DNA of 47,804 bases, taken from positions 1 to 47,804 of IMG/VR virus record IMGVR_UViG_3300042887_001390; one strand, 5' to 3'. The notes beneath the pieces are model-generated. The model was not told where the DNA came from. It ran no database searches and saw only the letters and a program-made list of their open reading frames with translations. Positions 3,001-47,804 of the stretch are shown piece after piece (positions within the stretch are counted from its first letter, which is position 1; each line of letters opens with the position of its first letter). A program made the position numbers and the translations under genes. This DNA comes from a virus.

Positions 3001-4357
3001 ACTGAACTGTACCAGAAGTAGAACCAGATAATGTAACAGAAGTTAAACCTGCTAGTGTTGTTGATGAAGAACCTAAAGAAATAGAAGTTGTTCCAACTGT
3101 TAAACTTGAATTTGTAAGTTTAGCATTAGCAATAGAACCAGCCAACATGGCATTAGTTACAGTAGCAGAATCACCAGTTGTAATAATAGTTCCTGTAGTA
3201 GCAGGAATTGTTAAAACTGTTCCAGTACCAACTGCCGTTACAGGAACTAATTGAACTGTACCAGAAGTAGATCCTGGAAGTGTAAGTGAACTAATACCTG
3301 CTAATGCTAAATTGGCACTTGCTCTATTTAACGCAACTGAAGTAGTACCGATATAATGTGTATCTGCTCTTAATGCAACAGTTGAATCTATAGCAACAGT
3401 AACTGCAGAAGAACCATCGTAAGAAGTTCCAGTTAAACCAGAGCCAATTGTTAATATATTAGTTGCGGTTGCTTTAATAGTTATATCAGCAGAACCATTA
3501 AAACTAATTCCATTTATATTTCTAGCAGTTGCTAAAGTGGTTGCAGTTGTGGCATTACCAGTAAGAGCACCTGTAAACCCAGTAGATGTAACAGAAGTCA
3601 AACCAGCTAATGTCGTAGAAGAACCACCCAAAGAAATTGTAGTTGTTCCAACTGTCAAACTTGAATTTATTAATTTAGCATTAGCAATTGAGCCAGACAA
3701 CATTGTATTAGTAACAGTTCCTGTATCACCAGTTGTTACAATTGTTCCAGTCGTAGCAGGAATCGTCAATATAGTTCCAGTTCCAACTGCTGCTGTAGGT
3801 ATTATCTGAACTGAACCTGAAGTAGAACCTTGCATTGTTACCGATAAAATACCAGTTAATGCTAAATTTGCTGAAGTACGATTAAGAGCAACAGAGGTTG
3901 TACCAATGTAGGTTGTATCTGCTCTTAATGCAACAGCAGTACCAATTCCTATAGTTACTGCACTAGAACCATCATAAGAAGTTCCTGTTAAATTAGTACC
4001 AAAGGTTAAAATGTTAGTAGCAGTTGCTTTAATTGTAATATCGGCAGAACCATTGAAACTAACACCATTGATATTTCTTGATGTTGTTAAAGTTGCAGCA
4101 GAACCAGTTGTGTTTTGATTAAGAGTTGGAAAGTCTGCTGCAACAGCAATTACTGGTGCACCTGTTCCTGTTGTATTTCTTAGAATACCAGTCGCTAAAC
4201 CAGATAAAGTAACCCCATTTATTTTTTGTACTGTTGTTGCATTTCCTGTAGAAACAACATCTCCAGTTAGAAGTGCATTATCCCGTACATAAGTAAAATT
4301 GTCATCTATTTGATTGTTCGTTAAAGGTGATCCAGAAGACCTTAAAATTAGTGCCAT
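1..4357 (-). CDS. Giant tail fibre / adhesin-like protein (C-terminus beyond window)
   Basis: The minus strand is open from an ATG at 4357 to the window edge (about 1452 codons) and the 3' end is missing. The SD-like AAGGAAAA lies about 8 nt upstream. The N-terminus MALILRSSGSPLTNNQ resembles that of the next fibre gene. The body is low-complexity Thr/Ser/Gly/Val repeats: four loose copies of a module containing SLTVGTT and TLAGLTSVT between about 2400 and 4000. Then come motifs of the type NVGIGTSSP, and finally 17-residue NTTGYxNSAMG repeats. GIGTSSP motifs are typical of phage fibres ending in an endosialidase-type intramolecular chaperone (peptidase S74), so one may lie beyond position 1; that is inference. 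Role: distal receptor-binding or decoration fibre. The plus-strand ORFs here are shadows of the repeats. Confidence 0.85.
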   Translation of the reverse strand, partial: MALILRSSGSPLTNNQIDDNFTYVRDNALLTGDVVSTGNATTVQKINGVTLSGLATGILRNTTGTGAPVIAVAADFPTLNQNTTGSAATLTTSRNINGVSFNGSADITIKATATNILTFGTNLTGTSYDGSSAVTIGIGTAVALRADTTYIGTTSVALNRTSANLALTGILSVTMQGSTSGSVQIIPTAAVGTGTILTIPATTGTIVTTGDTGTVTNTMLSGSIANAKLINSSLTVGTTTISLGGSSTTLAGLTSVTSTGFTGALTGNATTATTLATARNINGISFNGSADITIKATATNILTIGSGLTGTSYDGSSAVTVAIDSTVALRADTHYIGTTSVALNRASANLALAGISSLTLPGSTSGTVQLVPVTAVGTGTVLTIPATTGTIITTGDSATVTNAMLAGSIANAKLTNSSLTVGTTSISLGSSSTTLAGLTSVTLSGSTSGTVQLIATAISATTILTLPATSGTIVTTGDTGTVTNTMLAGSIANAKLVNSTISGISLGSNLNTLTIGSGLTGTSYNGTTAVTIAIDSTVALKADTTYIGTTSVALNRTSSNLALTGILSVTMQGSTSGSVQIIPTAVAGTGTILTMPATSGTIVTTGDTGTVTNTMLSGSIANTKLTNSSLTVGTTSISLGGSSTTLAGLTSVTSTAFTGALTGNASTATKLATARLINGVSFDGSADITISAATSSLTGLGTGVATFLATPTSANLATAVTDETGTGLLVFGTSPAITTSLTTPSTSFDLINTTATTVNFAKAATILSMGATTGTSTINNDLVVSGNLTVNGTTTTINTATLAVDDKNIELGSVPSATISATGTVGTITGSGPWSAVITGMVSTTGLIVGSSLSATNGTGSLGGSGSYIVTSINSKTQVTYSATGGTTPTAGTITTITTTGYNDITANGAGITVKGVTDKTLNWVGTTTAWTSSENLDIASGKSYLINGTSVLSSSTLGSGVTASSLTSVGTLNNLVYSGTLTGGTGIINIGSGQIYKDASGNVGIGTSSPVYKLDISGPVRVNIPYSQIVQSCSTGGITTGGYIRYTSNGGGSYQYQINTAAAGDFTTARTAYTIDASGNVGIGTSSPSSYAGKVVSYNNTNSLASFTALSGLAASSVIEIQDGAATPNRWWLLSGLGTTTDGTFSIYDKRQSVSRLAIDSAGNVGIGTSGLTSKLSIKGTTATDAPTLGTEFITGGTWTSTGWTGDNTTGWVNGASNSTALSYSVAAVVSTRYQITYTVTGYSAGSFTVAFGGQSLAGITATGTFGPTTTSTANLVITPTATFVGTIVVSIKAITAASTVLITALDSTGTARFEVRASSADANTFLGLSSGRYNTTGYYNSAMGSAALQSNTTGYQNSAVGSAALQSNTTGYFNSAMGSSALQSNTTGYFNSAVGQAALSSNTTGYFNSAMGRSALQSNTTGVQNSAMGVSALLSNTTGYFNSAMGRTAL
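2..358 (-). repeat. Seven tandem 51-bp (17-aa) fibre repeats
   Basis: The sequence gagtgca recurs at 2, 53, 104, 155, 206, 257 and 308, an exact 51-bp period in frame with the fibre gene. Each unit encodes NTTGYxNSAMGxxALQS. The array continues out of the window. Between units changes cluster in the residue after GY and in the two residues after G. The array is visibly richer in GC than the rest of the window. Confidence 0.95.
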
Positions 4358-4369
4358 TATTTTTCCTTA

Positions 4370-5968
4370 TTATGTTTTAATGCAATACATTAATGCAATA
4401 TTTCGTGGTCTAGTTTCAGTAGAAAATGTTCCAGTAGAAGAATCAGTCCCATCACCTGTATTTGAACTTACTCCACAAAAAGTAGGACCCATTGCTGCAC
4501 CAGATCCAGCAGTAAGTAATTGAAAATAAGTATGTGTGTGTTTTTGTAAAGAATGATGCTGTAAACTACCTAAACCTCTTCCACCATCTAAATTCCTACC
4601 ATGATCCCATCCACGAATAAATTCTCCTCTTAAATCAGGAAGACTAAAAGTTGTTGAACCATTTCCTGTATTTGGTTTACCCATTGCATTCCATAAATTA
4701 ACATAAGTTGTTCTAGAAACAGTAGTGCCATTACATTCTAACCATCCTGATGGAGCAGTTGACCTATAAAATGCCATTACGGCTCCAGCAGGAGTAGATG
4801 ATGAATTACTTATATTTACACCAGTTACATTGCCAGAAACATTCAAATTTCCAACTATAGAAATAGTTCCACTACCATTTGTTCCATTACCACCAGATGC
4901 AGATATTAAAGAATCCCAACTACCATTTGAAGGAGTATGTCCACTTGTCCAAAATTCAAAAGGAGCATTACAAGGTTTGCCAAATCTACCCATCATAATT
5001 TCAGGATATGCTCCATCACCAGCTCCTTCTTGAATGAGATTTATGAATGTTAGATCATTCATCCCTATTCCTTTACCAAACAAAGAATTTACAGTATAAT
5101 TACCATTAGGGTTTAAAGTAGACCATTTATTTGTGACAAAGGCTGTTGTTGCAACTTTATTAGAACTATCGGTTGTAATTTGAGTTACAGCTGTTGCTGA
5201 ACCTAATGATGGTGAAGATAAACTTGTTATATCGATATTTGTACCAGATTTTGCAGCATCTAAAGCGACTCTTGCAGTATCTTTTGTATTAGCACCAGTA
5301 CCACCATTAATTATAGATACTATTCCTGTTACATTTGATGAAGTTCCAGTTATACTAGAATTTAAAAATGCAACAGTTTTAGTTACTCCGCCAGTAGATA
5401 ATTGTAAACCATTTGCAGTATGCCATAAATCGCCTTCAACTGGTGATGTAGGAACTAATAATGTTTTTGGTATTTTTAAAGAAACAACTGAAGTGGTAGT
5501 TGCACATAATATTAATTTTCCAGTTAAGGTATCACCTGCAATATTAACTGCACCAAGTGATGCTCTAGCCAATGGTGCAGTAATTGCACCAGTACCACCT
5601 TTAGTGATAGGTAATGTAGTAGATAAAGTTAATGCTGTATCTGCTGTATCTGCTCGAACACATTCTGTGGATTTTCCATGAATTAAATTAACAAAAATTT
5701 CTCTTGCTTGAAAATCACCATTAACATCTCTAGTTACGATTGTATTTGCAGTAGGAGTAGATGTTGGTACGAGACCTCTTAATTTAGAAGCATCTATACC
5801 AGAACTTTCTCCTTGAGGTCCAGTAGTAATTTTTAATAATACTGATGTTGAGGTAAAATCTGTTATTGCTAATTTAGAGGTAATTTGACCTGATAGATAA
5901 GTAAAGTTGCCATCTAATTCAGTATTCGTAAGAGGAAAAGCCTTAGAACTTCTTAAAATTAATGACAT
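4370..5968 (-). CDS. Tail fibre with phage tail collar domain
   Basis: 532 aa. The C-terminal 140 residues are a phage tail collar domain: GAVMAFYRSTAPSGWLECNG, then FSLPDLRGEFIRGWDHGR, then a His-rich HHSLQKHTHTY stretch, and the terminal TRPRNIALMYCIK typical of T4 gp12/gp37-like and other myovirus fibres. His residues in this setting bind metal in T4 gp12 (family knowledge). The N-terminus MSLILRSSKAFPLTNTELDG matches the neighbouring giant fibre, suggesting a common docking segment. The middle is repetitive Ser/Thr-rich sequence. It is 12 nt upstream of the giant fibre and 2 nt downstream of the 77-aa gene, so probably one transcript. Likely a baseplate- or collar-attached short or side fibre. 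Confidence 0.85.
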   Translation of the reverse strand: MSLILRSSKAFPLTNTELDGNFTYLSGQITSKLAITDFTSTSVLLKITTGPQGESSGIDASKLRGLVPTSTPTANTIVTRDVNGDFQAREIFVNLIHGKSTECVRADTADTALTLSTTLPITKGGTGAITAPLARASLGAVNIAGDTLTGKLILCATTTSVVSLKIPKTLLVPTSPVEGDLWHTANGLQLSTGGVTKTVAFLNSSITGTSSNVTGIVSIINGGTGANTKDTARVALDAAKSGTNIDITSLSSPSLGSATAVTQITTDSSNKVATTAFVTNKWSTLNPNGNYTVNSLFGKGIGMNDLTFINLIQEGAGDGAYPEIMMGRFGKPCNAPFEFWTSGHTPSNGSWDSLISASGGNGTNGSGTISIVGNLNVSGNVTGVNISNSSSTPAGAVMAFYRSTAPSGWLECNGTTVSRTTYVNLWNAMGKPNTGNGSTTFSLPDLRGEFIRGWDHGRNLDGGRGLGSLQHHSLQKHTHTYFQLLTAGSGAAMGPTFCGVSSNTGDGTDSSTGTFSTETRPRNIALMYCIKT

Positions 5969-5970
5969 CT

Positions 5971-6204
5971 TTAACCCCTTTCTATTAGGATATTGATTAA
6001 TCGTTTAATATCTGATATATCGTTTTTAATCATATCTATTTCTTCTTGTTGTCTAAGTGATTTTTCTTTTTCTTCATTTAACTTCTTTTTTTTATTTATA
6101 TAAGAAGTATATTCAGAATTATTAGTATTTATAATGGCATGGGTTAGTTCATCTCGAACCAACCCATCATGACCTTCAACTTTTATAAAGTTAGGCACAG
6201 GCAA
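5971..6204 (-). CDS. Small coiled-coil virion-associated protein
   Basis: 77 aa. The N-terminal part NFIKVEGHDGLVRDELTHAI is followed by a Lys/Glu-rich helix (about residues 35-76) with heptad-like hydrophobics, a predicted coiled coil. It overlaps the end of the DUF4815 gene by 14 nt and is 2 nt before the collar-domain fibre. I recall similar short proteins at this place in T4-like cyanophages, annotated only as structural. The exact role is unknown; a fibre-baseplate linker is plausible. Confidence 0.7.
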   Translation of the reverse strand: MPVPNFIKVEGHDGLVRDELTHAIINTNNSEYTSYINKKKKLNEEKEKSLRQQEEIDMIKNDISDIKRLINILIERG

Positions 6205-9200
6205 TAATCCTAAGATCTTTTACTTGTGGAACATAGCAAGAATTTGTTGAAGTAAATACCAATTTAACTGTAACAGAATCAAAATCAGGTAAATCAACTA
6301 AATCTATTTCACTATCAATAAATATACCATTATTGTTTTTATCAAAAACATAAGTTGCTCTTTTATATTCTACAGTATCAAAAAATTCATAACTTCCAAC
6401 AGTTCCTAATTTATAATAAACTTCAATATTTGCCATAGTTGGAACATTAGCACTCATTATAATTTTTAAGAAAGTGCTTGGATTTGCTAATGAAATTTCT
6501 TTTGTTACATATTTACTATAAGAAGATGAACCAGATGGTGTTATTTCAGAAAAATATCTATCTTTAGATATAATTGTAATATTACCTGTTCCTACTAACA
6601 TATTCTTTTCAACAGTTATTGTAGATCCATCTAATGAAACATCAGTTATCAAAATTGTTGAATTATTAGCTGCAACACTAGATCCACTTATAGTAATATA
6701 TTGACCAGCATATAATGTTTTAACGTGTGCTCTATTTTCTCCAGTATCTGCAATAGCAATAATAGTAGTACCATCAAAAGTTACTGTTGAATCAGCAGTT
6801 ATAATAGTTCTATCATCTATAGGAGATATATTTAATGAAGAAGAAGGAGCATTAATTTTATTATTAACTAAAATAGCACATACACCTCTAGTATCAATAA
6901 TTGGTGATAAAGTATCAATATCAGAGTAAATATCAGTTCTAATAACTGCAGTATTAATTTGACCTGTTTTAGTAGTTAAATCAATAGGTAATCCATCTTG
7001 AGGTCTATGTAATGCATTTTCATGAGAAGCAATCATTCTAGTCCAAGTTAAATTATGTGTTTCCCCTAATGTAACAGGTTCCCAATAATAGGAACCAAGT
7101 GTACTAAATGGTATTTGTGTACCATTTAGAGATTTACCTGTAGTTCCTCTTATATAAGGTATAATTTTAGTGTTAGTAAAAACTTGATTTTTTATAATTG
7201 GTTGAATAGCATCATAATGAATATTTTTAGTTGCAAAAATACCATCACCGCCACCATAACCAGATTGTGTAGCATTTTCAGCAAGTGTTAATATAAAAGA
7301 ATCATATTCTTGGACATCAGTAACACGATGTTCTTTAAATATATTTGCTGGAGATATACCATAAATAGGATTTGCAAGTTTCCAAACACCAGAATATGAT
7401 AATGGTGAATTGGCAACTAATTGTAAAGAAGTATTATTTGTTATAGTAAGAACTTCACCTATAAGAACACCATCTTTTCTATAAACATTTGCACCAACTT
7501 CTAAATCAGAAGTAAATGAAGTTCCAGTACCAGTAACAGTTTTTGTTCCAATAGTAACAGCAATTGTTCCAGTTGCATCAGGAGCACTTGATCTTAAAGT
7601 TACTTTTGAACCAGTAAGAACACCGCTGACCAATTGAGTAGTTTGTCCATGATTATTCATCATAACACGAACTTTATTAGATCCTGCAGTAAACTGAATA
7701 GGATTTGTATCTAAATTAACATCAGTTAAAACAGTATTTTCAAATTCTATAACACCAAATTTACCTGTAACAAATTTTGCTCTATTGATTTTAAATTTCA
7801 AATCTTGGTCTTGATTAGCAGTCCAAGTAGAAGCATTTTGAGATTTAAATAACACACCAGAATACGGTTGTTTATCAATAACTTTAGAAGTTACTTTATC
7901 ATATTCACCCATTTGTGAAATCCAAACTTTATAATCTACTGAATTAGATGTTAATACTATACAATATTCAGTGGCATTTTGAACTTGAACAGGAGATGGA
8001 AATACAAAAGTTGTAGCAACGCTTGAATCAGAAGATGTTGTAATATTTACTGGTAATTTAGTTACTTGTGAAAATGGTAAAATAGAACGACCAGGATAAC
8101 CATTAACAACATTTCTAATATCTAAAATTATTGGCATTGTTGTATCTTTAGATGCAAAGAATATATCAACACTTGTTAAGAAACAACCACCACCTGAGCC
8201 AGATTGTGCAGATACACCACCAGCAGGAATAATTTCTGGAAATCCATCTACCAAAAATGTTTGCGCTAAAGGATCATACCAACCAGTATCACTAACAATT
8301 CTTTGGGAAGTATCTGTAATAGTTCGTGTATCATTAGCAGTTGAGGTTACTATTGTTGCATTTCTTATTGCATTAACAGTTTTTTGTCTTGTTTCAACAT
8401 GACCTTCTGCAGAATATATTCCAGTGGCAGATGATTTAGCTGATATTAAATCATAAGAAGCAATATCCAATAATGCTAATTCTCTTTTACCAGTTCTAAA
8501 ATGTAAAGCATCTGTATTAGGAATATTAAATATAAAATTCAAACCTCCATGAGAATCAGACATTAATCCAGAAGTATAATTATTAGTGGTATGAGCGATA
8601 ACTGTAGCGGTGGCGCCAGAAATTGAACCTACTAAAAGATCACCAGTTTTAAAACCAACTCCATCTGCAGTATTAGAATCTTTAACATTAACTACAAATA
8701 TAGATTTAACACCAGTTGCAGAAGTTTGTTCACCAACAACAACTGCTGTAGCACCAGATAATGACCCAGTAATAACATCACCAAGAGTCAACGCAAAATC
8801 TGGGTTATTGCCCATTGCTCTAGCAGCAGTTTTATAATCATTACCTGAATTAGAATCTGTATCAAAAAGTATATTATTAGTTTTTGTAATTGTAATAACA
8901 TCAGCAGGATCACAAAATCTTAATACATCTTCTTTATCGAAAAAAGGATAATATTTTGTATTTGGTTTTAAACCTCTATTTTGAATAAGAATATTTCTGC
9001 TACGAATAAAAGGAATTGTAGTTACATTTAAAACTTTATCGTCTACAGTTTGATAATCAATAGTTTCTTTAAGAGAAGAAGTAACACCTGTTCTAGTTTG
9101 ACCTAATAATTTAGTATCAGTTGCACGAATTATTTGTCTTGCAGGAGCAGTTCTATTACCAGCACCATTCATATTAATAGCATCTTGAACAGAAATTTGA

Positions 9201-38220: not shown

Positions 38221-38838
38221 ATGACCAGCATAACTACTTATAAAGAAATAACACCCACCTATCTTTGTATCAAACAACATTCAGTTACAAAATTAAAATA
38301 TTTTTGTAAAACTACTAAAAAAGACCCATACAAATATTTGGGTTCAGGTTATCATTGGGTAAATCATTATAAAAAACACGGTAAAGAACATATAAAAACT
38401 TTATGGGTTTCCGAATATTATTATGATACATCTATAGTAGAAGTTGCATTACATTTCTCGAATGAAAATAATATAGTCGAATCTAATGATTGGGCTAATC
38501 TAAAACCTGAAAATGGATTAGATGGCGGTTCTCAAAAAGGTAGAATTGTTTCTAATGAAACAAGAGAAAAATTATCTAAACTTCAAAGCAATCAATCAGA
38601 AAAGACTAGATTACTACGTTCTGCTGCTCAAACAGGTAAAGAGCATTCAGATGAACATAAAGCTAAGAACTCTGCTGCTAATAAAGGTAAAACTAGAACA
38701 GAAGAATCAAAGGCAAAAATGTCTGATTGGCAAAAAGGTGTTCCCAAAAGAATAGAACAATGCCCCCACTGTAATAAAAGTGGGGGAGTTAGTAATATGA
38801 AAAGATATCACTTCGATAATTGTAAATTAAAACCCTAA
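38221..38838 (+). CDS. Seg-like GIY-YIG homing endonuclease 1 (possibly degenerate)
   Basis: 205 aa. The N-terminus is a GIY-YIG-like domain: PTYLCIKQHSVTKLKYFCKT, then DPYKYLGSGYHW and the Glu-containing NIVESNDWANLKPENGL. In the second motif Gly is replaced by Cys (KYFCKT) compared with its paralogue at 46888 (KYFGKT), which may weaken activity. Residues 130-170 hold NUMOD3-like DNA-binding repeats (EHSDEHKAKNSAANKGKTRT, EESKAKMSDWQKG). The C-terminus is a CPHC...H...C zinc finger-like motif. It is a lone plus-strand gene inserted between minus early operons and overlaps the end of phoH by 12 nt, convergent. Confidence 0.85.
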   Translation: MTSITTYKEITPTYLCIKQHSVTKLKYFCKTTKKDPYKYLGSGYHWVNHYKKHGKEHIKTLWVSEYYYDTSIVEVALHFSNENNIVESNDWANLKPENGLDGGSQKGRIVSNETREKLSKLQSNQSEKTRLLRSAAQTGKEHSDEHKAKNSAANKGKTRTEESKAKMSDWQKGVPKRIEQCPHCNKSGGVSNMKRYHFDNCKLKP

Positions 38839-41376: not shown

Positions 41377-41631
41377 ATGGAAAGTTTATACACAAGATGG
41401 AGACCAGCAATTGCATGGTCATATATGGTGATATGTTTATTTGATTTTATGGTTGGACCAATAATATATAATACACTTCAGTATCTAGAAGATGGAACTA
41501 ATATTTCAATGTGGCAAAGCATTACACTTCAGGGTGGAGGATTGTATCATCTTTCGATGGGTGCTATTGTGGGTGTATCTGCATTTGGTAGAACCAAAGA
41601 GAAATTGGCTGCTTCAGTAGTAAAAGAATAA
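41377..41631 (+). CDS. Probable holin (3-TM family)
   Basis: 84 aa with AAGGAG upstream. N-terminus MESLYTRWRPAIAWSYMVIC leads into a first membrane segment (about 10-33), with further hydrophobic stretches near 45-58 and 58-70 (LYHLSMGAIVGVSAFG), and a charged C-terminus. The RP near the start and overall pattern match the Holin of 3TMs family. A lone plus-strand late gene beside the endolysin operon. Pore formation at lysis time is the expected role. Confidence 0.75.
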   Translation: MESLYTRWRPAIAWSYMVICLFDFMVGPIIYNTLQYLEDGTNISMWQSITLQGGGLYHLSMGAIVGVSAFGRTKEKLAASVVKE

Positions 41632-41643
41632 ATATATGGGTGG

Positions 41644-41719
41644 TACAACTATCTAGGTTCAAACCTTATTGCGATAATTTCAATATGAGGAAGTATGCAT
41701 CGGGTCTTAGATAGTTGTA
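41644..41719 (+). ncRNA. Candidate structured RNA closed by a 12-bp helix
   Basis: TACAACTATCTA (41644-41655) pairs perfectly with TAGATAGTTGTA (41708-41719). Inside are AGGT-TCAA-ACCT and TATTG...CAATA hairpins, so a 76-nt branched fold can be drawn. A terminator-like hairpin begins 7 nt later. On the plus strand it is the 3' UTR of the holin. It contains a T-loop-like TTCAAAC but no tRNA fold was found. No known RNA family recognised. Confidence 0.45.
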
Positions 41720-41725
41720 TGGCAA

Positions 41726-41750
41726 TTGCGGTACAGTTTATGTACCGCAA
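41726..41750. terminator. Terminator-like hairpin between holin and pqqA
   Basis: TTGCGGTACA-GTTTA-TGTACCGCAA, a perfect 10-bp stem. On the plus strand CCTTTT follows (weak U-tract). On the minus strand it begins 4 nt after the pqqA stop. It lies between convergent genes. Confidence 0.7.
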
Positions 41751-41754
41751 CCTT

Positions 41755-41829
41755 TTATCTGTTCATAATATAACAAGTTACTTCAAATCCTAATCTAATA
41801 TCATTATAAGTCGGTATTTCCCACTTCAT
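41755..41829 (-). CDS. pqqA: PqqA-like PQQ precursor peptide
   Basis: 24 aa, the normal PqqA length. Begins MKWEIPTYND; residues 11-24 are IRLGFEVTCYIMNR, against the bacterial PqqA pattern RLGxEVTxYxxNR. Glu16 and Tyr20, the pair joined by PqqE to form pyrroloquinoline quinone, are in place (ExxxY). SD AGGAG 6 nt upstream. It overlaps the 46-aa gene and is the last gene of the operon. No pqqBCDE is in the window, so it would depend on host enzymes or act as a decoy. Function as PQQ precursor is inference from sequence. Confidence 0.85.
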   Translation of the reverse strand: MKWEIPTYNDIRLGFEVTCYIMNR

Positions 41830-41944
41830 CTTCTTCTCCTAGTTTATACATAAAATTCAAGAATTCCTCAAACGTCATACCTCCTGGCATTGTATAGAAT
41901 GTGCATTCAACTGCTTCTTGCATTCGTTCTAAATCAAAGTTCAT
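41804..41944 (-). CDS. 46-aa acidic protein upstream of pqqA
   Basis: 46 aa: MNFDLERMQEAVECTFYTMP then GGMTFEEFLNFMYKLGEEDE. Overlaps both neighbours (pqqA by 26 nt, the membrane peptide by 11 nt). Acidic and probably helical; no family recognised. It is too short to be PqqD. Its overlap suggests translational coupling to pqqA. Confidence 0.65.
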   Translation of the reverse strand: MNFDLERMQEAVECTFYTMPGGMTFEEFLNFMYKLGEEDEVGNTDL

Positions 41945-42080: not shown

Positions 42081-42494
42081 TTAAATTGTTTTTCCTGCTT
42101 GTAAATCCTTTAATGTCAAACCACCAGTGTATTGACAATGTGCAAGTTCTTTAAATGTTTTCCAATTACCAGCCCATTCTAATCCTAACGATTCAGCAAT
42201 CTGACCACATTTATTAAATGCAGCAGTATCATTCCATTGTGCTTTACCATTAACGATTGGACAAAAGTCAAATGCTATTTTATAATTATGAAAAGATTGA
42301 CCTGCTTTTGCATTGGTAACTTTACTTCCAGGAGTTGTTCTTCCTTGAGCATATATTGCATTTTGTGATTCATTATCTCTATAGGTAGATGTAATCAAAA
42401 CATCTATACCTGCTTCGGCACATTTTGCAATAAATTGTTTACAAAGTTCTTCTACTTTAGGATGTAAATCTTCTAATTTTCTACTGTTAATCAT
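42081..42494 (-). CDS. Endolysin, M15 (VanY/CwlK-like) L-alanyl-D-glutamate-type peptidase
   Basis: 137 aa, the usual length for single-domain M15C endolysins. STYRDNESQNAIYAQGRTTP, then AGQSFHNYKIAFDF giving zinc ligands His69 and Asp76 (SxHxxxxAxD, with Lys at the usual Gly), and FKELAHCQY with Glu116 and His119. It cleaves peptide stems of peptidoglycan. No signal peptide, so it needs a holin; one is encoded 500 bp away on the other strand. Separated by 14 nt from the ADP-ribosyltransferase gene. Confidence 0.9.
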   Translation of the reverse strand: MINSRKLEDLHPKVEELCKQFIAKCAEAGIDVLITSTYRDNESQNAIYAQGRTTPGSKVTNAKAGQSFHNYKIAFDFCPIVNGKAQWNDTAAFNKCGQIAESLGLEWAGNWKTFKELAHCQYTGGLTLKDLQAGKTI

Positions 42495-42508: not shown

Positions 42509-43501
42509 TTATAATCTTGAAAAGTCTGATTGTTTAGAATCATGGGAACTAACATGATACCATTTCTTAGCGTCTCTATCAAATTGCATTCCTTCCTTCT
42601 TCGCTTTATCTTTTTCAGCAAATGGAACTTGATGATAGAACTTATGTATATCAGTTTCTTTGTAATTTTTTATATCTTTTTGAGGTATTCTTTTAACATG
42701 GTGTATGTGGTACATAGTATTATTTGGTCCTAACACTTCCTCTGTGTACAAATATTCAATATGGTATTTGTCTAATGTAGAATCTGTTCTGGGAATCAAC
42801 ACTTCATGTTCTTCAGGGTGCATAGAATTAGAACCTATCATACCAACAGGTTGATTCTTTTCTAATTCCCAATGTAATATATGTTTAATTGGGCTTGTCT
42901 TTTCATATCTAGTATGAGTTCTTGTAGCAAAATATGATGCTATCTCTTTTGATATTGAAGAAGATAGATATGTTGGTTGTTTGAATACCTTGTTACCCTG
43001 AGGACTTAAACCAACATGTTGAGCATCCCTAATATCAAAGTTTGCTCCAGACCACGTATGAAGATTTTTTCTTGCTAGTGGCTTAAAACTTTTTTCATCT
43101 AAGGTTTTAATATGTTGTAGTATAGCAGAATCATTTATCATAGGATGGTTTCCTAATCCAACCTTAGTTTCGTGCGACCTAACTAATTTTCTTGATAACT
43201 CCCTAGAATCTTTGGTGAATGCGTTTAATGCATTCTTACCTTCAGCATCAGCGGCATGTTCATCTTCTAATTCTCGCATTGCTTGTTGGATACTAGCGAC
43301 GTAACCAAAGTCATTATGTCTAGTATTAAGCCATGTATTATAAGTTGTTGAAGTTGATTCATTAACTTCTTCTTTTATTTTAGCATGTTGACCATGAGTA
43401 TTTGTTATAACAACAGGATCTTTTTCTATAGCATGTTGACCATGAGTATTTGTTATAACAGTTGGATCAGCAATTTCTGTAAATTCTTTAAAACTTTTCA
43501 T
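42509..43501 (-). CDS. ADP-ribosyltransferase with capsid-targeting-like leader and DUF5710-like end
   Basis: 330 aa in three parts. Residues 1-11 MKSFKEFTEIA resemble the T4 internal-protein capsid-targeting leader (MKTYQEFIAEA). Residues 12-40 are two copies of DPxVITNTHGQHA. About 140-255 is an ART domain: LHTWSGANFD, STS-like motif TYLSSSISKEIASYFATR (177-194), a strand IKHILHWELEKNQ, and the catalytic ExE, Glu231 and Glu233, in PEEHEVLIPR. The C-terminus (288-317) VPFAEKDKAKKEGMQFDRDA followed by KKWYHV matches DUF5710. Likely packaged and injected to modify host proteins, as T4 Alt does. The usual R-x-G of the R motif is SG here. Directly abuts the agt stop. Confidence 0.8.
   Translation of the reverse strand: MKSFKEFTEIADPTVITNTHGQHAIEKDPVVITNTHGQHAKIKEEVNESTSTTYNTWLNTRHNDFGYVASIQQAMRELEDEHAADAEGKNALNAFTKDSRELSRKLVRSHETKVGLGNHPMINDSAILQHIKTLDEKSFKPLARKNLHTWSGANFDIRDAQHVGLSPQGNKVFKQPTYLSSSISKEIASYFATRTHTRYEKTSPIKHILHWELEKNQPVGMIGSNSMHPEEHEVLIPRTDSTLDKYHIEYLYTEEVLGPNNTMYHIHHVKRIPQKDIKNYKETDIHKFYHQVPFAEKDKAKKEGMQFDRDAKKWYHVSSHDSKQSDFSRL
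43381..43460 (-). repeat. 48-bp direct repeat in the ADP-ribosyltransferase leader
   Basis: The 32-nt block beginning TAGCATGTTGACCATGAG occurs identically at 43381-43412 and 43429-43460. It is in frame and duplicates ITNTHGQHA. Confidence 0.9.
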
Positions 43502-46811: not shown

Positions 46812-46887
46812 GCAATAAAAAATGCCAATCACGATACTGCAAATATCTATTGGCTCTAATCATTTTCTACATAAACAGGAGTCTATA

Positions 46888-47634
46888 ATGACCAGCACAA
46901 CTATTTATACCATAGCACCAACTTATCTTTATATTAAGCAACATTCTGTTACTGGATTAAAATACTTTGGTAAAACCAACAGAGATCCATACAAATATCT
47001 AGGTTCAGGTAAATATTGGACCAGACACATCAAAAAATATGGCAAAGAGCATGTGGTTACTTTATGGGTTTCTGAATTATACACCAATAAAGAACTGCTA
47101 ACTGAATTTGCATTGTTTTTTTCTGAAGAATATAACATAGTAGAATCCAAAGAATGGGCTAATCTTATTCCTGAAAATGGATTAACTGGTGCATTATCAG
47201 GATCGGGTAATCATATGTACGGTAAAAAAGGTGAAGACCATCCTAATTATGGAAAAATTAGCCCAACGAGAATTACCAGTTCTTTAGATGCTTGGGCATC
47301 TTTTACAAATGAGCAAAGAGCTGATAGAGAATTAAAAAGACAAAATACCATATCAGAAAGAACACAAGAACAACAAGATACTATCAACAAAAAAATAAGT
47401 TCTATGAAACTTGGAACCAAGATGCCAACCAGATCAGACGAACATCTATTAAAACTTTCCCTAGCAAATGGTAAAAATTATTTGGTAACTTCTCCAGAGG
47501 GTGAGCAATTTCAAATTTGTAGTTTATCTGCATTTTGTAAAAAGAATAATTTGCACAACAGTTCTATGTCTGAAGTATCTAGAGGTAAAAGAAAACACTA
47601 TAAAGGTTGGTTGTGTATTAGATTACCTGATTAA
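46888..47634 (+). CDS. Seg-like GIY-YIG homing endonuclease 2
   Basis: 248 aa from the ATG at 46888 (AGGAG upstream, same start sequence as endonuclease 1); an in-frame ATG at 46822 is rejected. GIY-YIG-like domain: PTYLYIKQHSVTGLKYFGKT, DPYKYLGSGKYWTRHIKKYG, and Glu in NIVESKEWANLIPENGL. The C-terminus has a NUMOD1/IENR1-like DNA-binding unit: SPEGEQFQICSLSAFCKKNN and RGKRKHYKGWLCI. Unlike copy 1 it retains the YFGK glycine. A mobile gene inserted between phage operons. Confidence 0.88.
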   Translation: MTSTTIYTIAPTYLYIKQHSVTGLKYFGKTNRDPYKYLGSGKYWTRHIKKYGKEHVVTLWVSELYTNKELLTEFALFFSEEYNIVESKEWANLIPENGLTGALSGSGNHMYGKKGEDHPNYGKISPTRITSSLDAWASFTNEQRADRELKRQNTISERTQEQQDTINKKISSMKLGTKMPTRSDEHLLKLSLANGKNYLVTSPEGEQFQICSLSAFCKKNNLHNSSMSEVSRGKRKHYKGWLCIRLPD

Positions 47635-47657
47635 TTACCGATTATTATTTTCATTCT

Positions 47658-47804
47658 TCAACTCCAAAAATTATCTTGTCTTCGCCAGTCATGGTTGATG
47701 CCCAATCTTTCACATATCAACCATTCTGGGCTATCGCTAAGGGTAATGACTTCATCCGATATATTGAGAATTTCCTTCGCAATCAATTCAGCAAACTTTT
47801 CCAA
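47658..47804 (-). CDS. C-terminal end of a hypothetical protein
   Basis: 48 codons open from the window edge to a TGA at 47658: LEKFAELIAKEILNISDEVI, SPEWLICERLGINHDWRRQD, ending NFWS. The FAELIxKE pattern is common in small phage hypothetical proteins. The N-terminus lies outside the window. No function assigned. Confidence 0.6.
   Translation of the reverse strand: MEKFAELIAKEILNISDEVITLSDSPEWLICERLGINHDWRRQDNFWS

Follow-up and report, generated by a model that had tools for sequence, protein, structure and literature searches.

How should one understand a gene for a 24-residue peptide resembling PqqA, the precursor of the cofactor pyrroloquinoline quinone (PQQ), when it is found in a phage and at the end of a run of phage genes? 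The window analysed here (the whole stretch of 47,804 nucleotides) belongs to a T4-like myovirus, of whose genome it is a 47.8-kb fragment, with T4-type genes for baseplate wedge and hub proteins, the tail tube cap, the DNA end protector, gp32, gp59 and PhoH. Its neighbours on either side (T4-type baseplate, gp32, gp59, PhoH and endolysin genes) place the pqqA-like gene within the phage genome and not in host DNA. Adjoining phoH there is also a homing endonuclease-like gene (NUMOD3; 38221-38838, plus strand).

The micro-ORF and its surroundings

The features at the locus are the following.

41377..41631 (+): holin-like gene, 84 aa, convergent with pqqA; GTA_holin_3TM, just under cut-off
41728..41752 (-): hairpin TTGCGGTACA-TAAAC-TGTACCGCAA, directly past the pqqA stop; -16.7 kcal/mol
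41755..41829 (-): pqqA-like micro-ORF, translation MKWEIPTYNDIRLGFEVTCYIMNR; Pfam PqqA and TIGR02107 matches
41804..41944 (-): 46-aa ORF, PHROG 17259 (unknown function); its 3' end overlaps the pqqA start
41830..41845 (-): ribosome-binding site GGAG, 6 nt before the ATG, within the end of the upstream ORF; read from the sequence
42081..42494 (-): endolysin (VanY/M15 peptidase), upstream, in the same gene run as pqqA

The micro-ORF runs over 24 codons from ATG to TAA and, with its own start and ribosome-binding site, has the size of PqqA (about 22-29 residues). Its translation places Glu at residue 16 and Tyr at residue 20, with the three residues between them that are proper to PqqA; these two we take to be the residues joined by PqqE during PQQ synthesis. 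Residue 19 is Cys. Coordinates, strand, length, both residues and a clean Shine-Dalgarno sequence had been proposed in the sequence-only reading of this DNA, and all of them hold. The PqqA HMM search that it had called for gave 31.2 bits with Pfam PF08042 (cut-off 21.1) and 33.7 bits with the NCBI equivalog TIGR02107 (cut-off 20), and a six-frame search of the whole 47.8-kb record returned this ORF as the sole PqqA match (E = 9e-8). With both scores above the curated cut-offs and such an E value, this is not a chance match. PHROGs contained no model matching the peptide and a PDB search with it gave no match. Judged by its sequence, the ORF is a real pqqA gene. It shares with bacterial PqqA (PF08042, TIGR02107) the length, the W-x-x-P motif, the RLGFEVTxY core, the Glu16/Tyr20 pair and the HMM scores, whereas it is distinguished by being phage-borne with no pqqB-E nearby and by Cys19, which is not in the bacterial copies sampled.

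The minus-strand run that pqqA closes includes the endolysin and two small ORFs. pqqA is its last gene, since a strong hairpin follows and the holin-like gene beyond points towards pqqA, so that the earlier suggestion of an operon end is well founded. The U-rich side of the hairpin reads as a plus-strand terminator, and the hairpin may serve both convergent genes. In two other viral contigs (L303 and L319), the same holin-like gene likewise has a pqqA of the window's type as its neighbour; moreover, L319 has, in the same place and with the same pqqA overlap, a homologue of the 46-aa ORF (80% identical). The interval separating the holin-like gene from the pqqA hairpin contains an inverted repeat (ACAACTATCTA ... 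TAGATAGTTGT) at 41640-41720, with no Rfam and no tRNA match, and an RNA family search around pqqA found nothing. Upstream of the endolysin, a 330-aa protein with an ADP-ribosyltransferase-type domain and a DUF5710 is encoded at 42509-43501 (-). A TATAAAT located 19 nt before the endolysin start was considered as a T4-type late promoter and not used, such a motif being weak in AT-rich DNA.

pqqA in cultured and uncultured phages

Among the best 25 matches listed for the gp6-like protein of the window, those of the Methylophilales phage Melnitz and of pelagiphage HTVC008M are the most similar (40% identity). L303 comes from a close relative, to which the proteins of the last 1 kb of the window are 100% identical. 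The proteins of 46822-47804 are 100% identical to the viral contig L503 (G582), and in the pqqA-holin region that is shared, similarity is far lower; this contrast in identity looks like a sign of recombination between close relatives. When relatives are chosen by PhoH, the closest fragments lack a pqqA in the neighbourhood of PhoH, and pqqA was found in 1 of 28 whole viral records picked by PhoH similarity, most of them fragments, which hints faintly that the gene is variable across this wider group. The search among related phages, proposed earlier as a check on the peptide, succeeded for L303 and L319, with the same neighbours, as well as for many other phages; it did not reveal a universal gene.

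IMG/VR was scanned with three patterns: a degenerate core (at least 120 contigs, each with a short PqqA micro-ORF), the N-terminal half (at least 120) and the Leu13 type (42, complete). Together they gave at least 192 distinct viral contigs with a PqqA micro-ORF. In the 1.68 Mb of flanking DNA fetched, pqqB, C, D or E was found in 0 of these viral contigs, against 21 of 120 loci in the host comparison set where pqqB-E lie beside pqqA. Linkage to pqqB-E is likewise absent from the window, where these genes were not recognised among those scanned. Such linkage is common and not required, extra host pqqA copies also being unlinked (PMC4109929). A tRNA-linked insertion site, suggested by Melnitz and by L290, was rejected, as a tRNA lies within 300 nt of just 2 of 191 copies.

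In the phage collection, PqqA turned up in nine Methylophilales phages (Melnitz x4, P19250A, Venkman, MEP301, MEP401 and MEP402), which were located via pqqA itself and are thus not proof that every Methylophilales phage has the gene. MEP431-434 and Venkman EXVC038S, which appear by name in the taxonomy, were not among the records that the searches gave. The other carriers found are one Manatee Spring podovirus (spring water, metagenomic) and 'Acinetobacter phage MD-2021a' (two contigs). The latter was set aside as phage evidence, for the contig inspected (L123, CAKLQF020000010.1) has pqqBCDE and polyphosphate kinase and is bacterial DNA. None of the nine has pqqA annotated as PqqA: the ORF carries no annotation at all in Venkman, P19250A, MEP301, MEP401 and MEP402. 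In Melnitz (MZ577097.1, L122 3967-4072) pqqA is on the plus strand and the annotation over it consists only of the minus-strand hypothetical protein QZI94879.1. Papers on Melnitz, MEP301, the MEP401 lineage and OM43/SAR11 phage isolation do not mention pqqA as a phage gene, and our literature search found no report of cultured methylophages with an unannotated pqqA, nor of the extent of pqqA in viruses.

Viral pqqA is nevertheless already known. In Lake Baikal, VP_266, a T4-like virus with a predicted Methylophilaceae host, was described in 2020 as carrying pqqA and proposed to aid PQQ supply (PMC7678222), and pqqA was listed among reservoir viral genes in 2026 (PMC13188868). The window copy, also in a T4-like virus, is a further case of a gene that is more widespread than noticed. 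Unlike the window, in which no dehydrogenase was recognised among the genes scanned, VP_266 has a methanol dehydrogenase on the same viral sequence.

PQQ dehydrogenases and hosts

One 72-kb viral contig (G558) combines pqqA with a PQQ dehydrogenase of the methanol/ethanol family (607.9 bits), a formate dehydrogenase (884.8 bits) and phage-type genes for ribonucleotide reductase, DNA ligase and GroEL, a gene content in agreement with the Lake Baikal report. On this contig (L496) the PQQ dehydrogenase (3990-5864) and the formate dehydrogenase alpha subunit (5944-8784) lie side by side and adjoin curli-like proteins. The PQQ_2 domain was found in none of 49 other records searched, and in most cases here no PQQ dehydrogenase was recognised along with pqqA, within the limits of the fragments. 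The earlier idea that a phage copy could serve host methanol dehydrogenases fits the nine Methylophilales phages and G558; in the window itself, the scanned genes include no recognised dehydrogenase.

Among bacterial genomes, most of the 80 records listed for the ending GFEVTxY[V/I/M]MN[K/R] are named Methylophilaceae or its genera, the remainder bearing broader names such as Betaproteobacteria, Nitrosomonadales or uncultured bacterium. In the family around an OM43-type genome (G035), 149 of 150 genomes have pqqA, usually in several copies. Cultured Methylophilaceae strains possess 3-12 pqqA against generally one set of pqqBCDE (PMC4109929), a ratio that points to a role for precursor dosage in these bacteria. 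Such orphan extra copies (PMC4109929; Ge et al. 2015, cited in PMC6520949) resemble the phage gene in being stand-alone precursor genes that draw on one enzyme set; they differ in their location on the host chromosome and in their peptide, MWT(T/K)PAATEMRFGFEVTMYVMNK, the window peptide being of another type. Additional homologues of pqqA are also present in the methylotroph M. extorquens AM1 (PMC6520949).

Most phage PqqA copies are identical or near-identical to the Methylophilaceae peptide. As for the window PqqA, its best bacterial matches are in some Gammaproteobacteria (75% identical), against 48% for the peptide of the OM43-type genome; at this identity, the peptide is not of the Methylophilaceae type. 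Cys19 occurs in several phage copies of the window type and in 0 of 369 sampled gammaproteobacterial genomes. In the genomes with the best gammaproteobacterial peptide matches (G481, G245 and G377) there was no pMMO/AMO family match, and nothing exceeded the curated cut-off for hexulose-phosphate synthase. OM43 could nevertheless be a host of the window phage, because Melnitz, an OM43 phage, likewise has a PqqA diverged from the type of its host. On these comparisons, the host of the window phage is probably a bacterium that makes PQQ, and likely a gammaproteobacterium in the broad sense.

What a lone precursor gene would do

Phage pqqA is under purifying selection. Copies that share one peptide have many different DNA sequences (for instance, 24 sequences among 30 copies), and pairwise pN/pS between the window copy and seven viral relatives is 0.10-0.38. 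At positions outside the core pattern, pN/pS is 0.54 for the Leu type and 0.29 for the Phe type, the latter value retaining some search bias since part of its set came from the N-terminal pattern.

We consider it probable that the window carries a genuine pqqA, standing alone in a T4-like phage of a PQQ-making bacterium and feeding the host PqqBCDE during infection. The phage peptide would be bound by host PqqD and cross-linked at Glu16-Tyr20 by host PqqE, after which PqqB, PqqC and proteases would complete PQQ for the host quinoprotein dehydrogenases. Within the pathway PqqA alone is consumed, each PQQ molecule costing one peptide, which makes PqqA the part most sensitive to host shut-off; as the Pqq enzymes can persist once host gene expression stops, the phage would need to bring this gene alone. 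We infer in this way that phage PqqA would boost the cofactor. On the other hand, PQQ bound in dehydrogenases may outlast the infection, and the benefit is not obvious for phages without a dehydrogenase of their own. Host PqqE may also handle the window peptide less well, since Cys19 is absent from the sampled gammaproteobacterial genomes. Cyanophages bring the short-lived photosystem II protein PsbA, a consumable component of a host machine; phage pqqA may be compared to psbA in that the phage would supply the consumable part, with the difference that PsbA is a protein subunit of photosystem II and not a cofactor precursor.

A substrate encoded apart from its enzymes might in principle also compete with the host peptide, and the phage product would then be a decoy that occupies PqqD or PqqE, lowers host PQQ and diverts the cell from respiration. 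The divergence of the window copy from the host peptides found, together with a Cys19 seen here in phage copies only, would be in line with this. Yet a decoy need not keep the cross-linked residues, and Glu and Tyr are both kept in 120 of 120 viral copies listed among the matches to the N-terminal-half pattern, host loci excluded, a pattern that does not require them; moreover, most phage peptides, identical or near-identical to those of hosts, would be poor inhibitors. We regard a decoy as quite improbable. Another possibility is that a PqqA-like peptide is the substrate of a different modifying enzyme, for another product, as short peptides serve many radical-SAM pathways. TIGR02107 is, however, an equivalog model, passed with margin, and the window genes scanned include no recognised maturation enzyme, which makes this the case of a very slight chance.

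The gene could finally be a passenger (moron), acquired from a host in whose genome numerous pqqA genes are scattered, and of little benefit to the phage. Several scattered copies in Methylophilaceae genomes would make capture easy, and the place of pqqA as last gene before a hairpin suits such an origin: a hairpin of -8 kcal/mol or lower stands after 55% of the pqqA genes in viruses and after 19% of other ORFs, in phages that are related and not independent, so that the p-value is not a true probability. Against this, divergent copies across phage types retain the peptide while silent sites change, and the nine cultured Methylophilales phages that carry it are of different types. A passenger gene therefore seems unlikely to us, and supply of precursor to the host enzymes remains our preferred reading. 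We also lean, by a little, to a wider picture in which stand-alone pqqA would be near-universal in phages of PQQ-dependent methylotrophs and present in some phages of other Gammaproteobacteria, would have been acquired by unrelated phage types and missed because of its ~70 nt, and would keep the host cofactor line running after host shut-off, the T4-like clade of the window having evolved its own Cys19 version.

Genes of ~70 nt can be important and yet overlooked, as illustrated by the PqqA annotation in 0 of 9 Methylophilales phages. The cultured phages with pqqA (Melnitz, Venkman, P19250A, MEP301, MEP401 and MEP402) provide direct test material; the medium published for OM43 hosts has 1 nM PQQ in it (PMC9004378). 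Coastal water is rich in methylotrophs such as OM43, whose oxidation of methanol relies on PQQ enzymes; if the phages of these bacteria routinely bring in the PQQ precursor, methanol oxidation would be kept going by infection.
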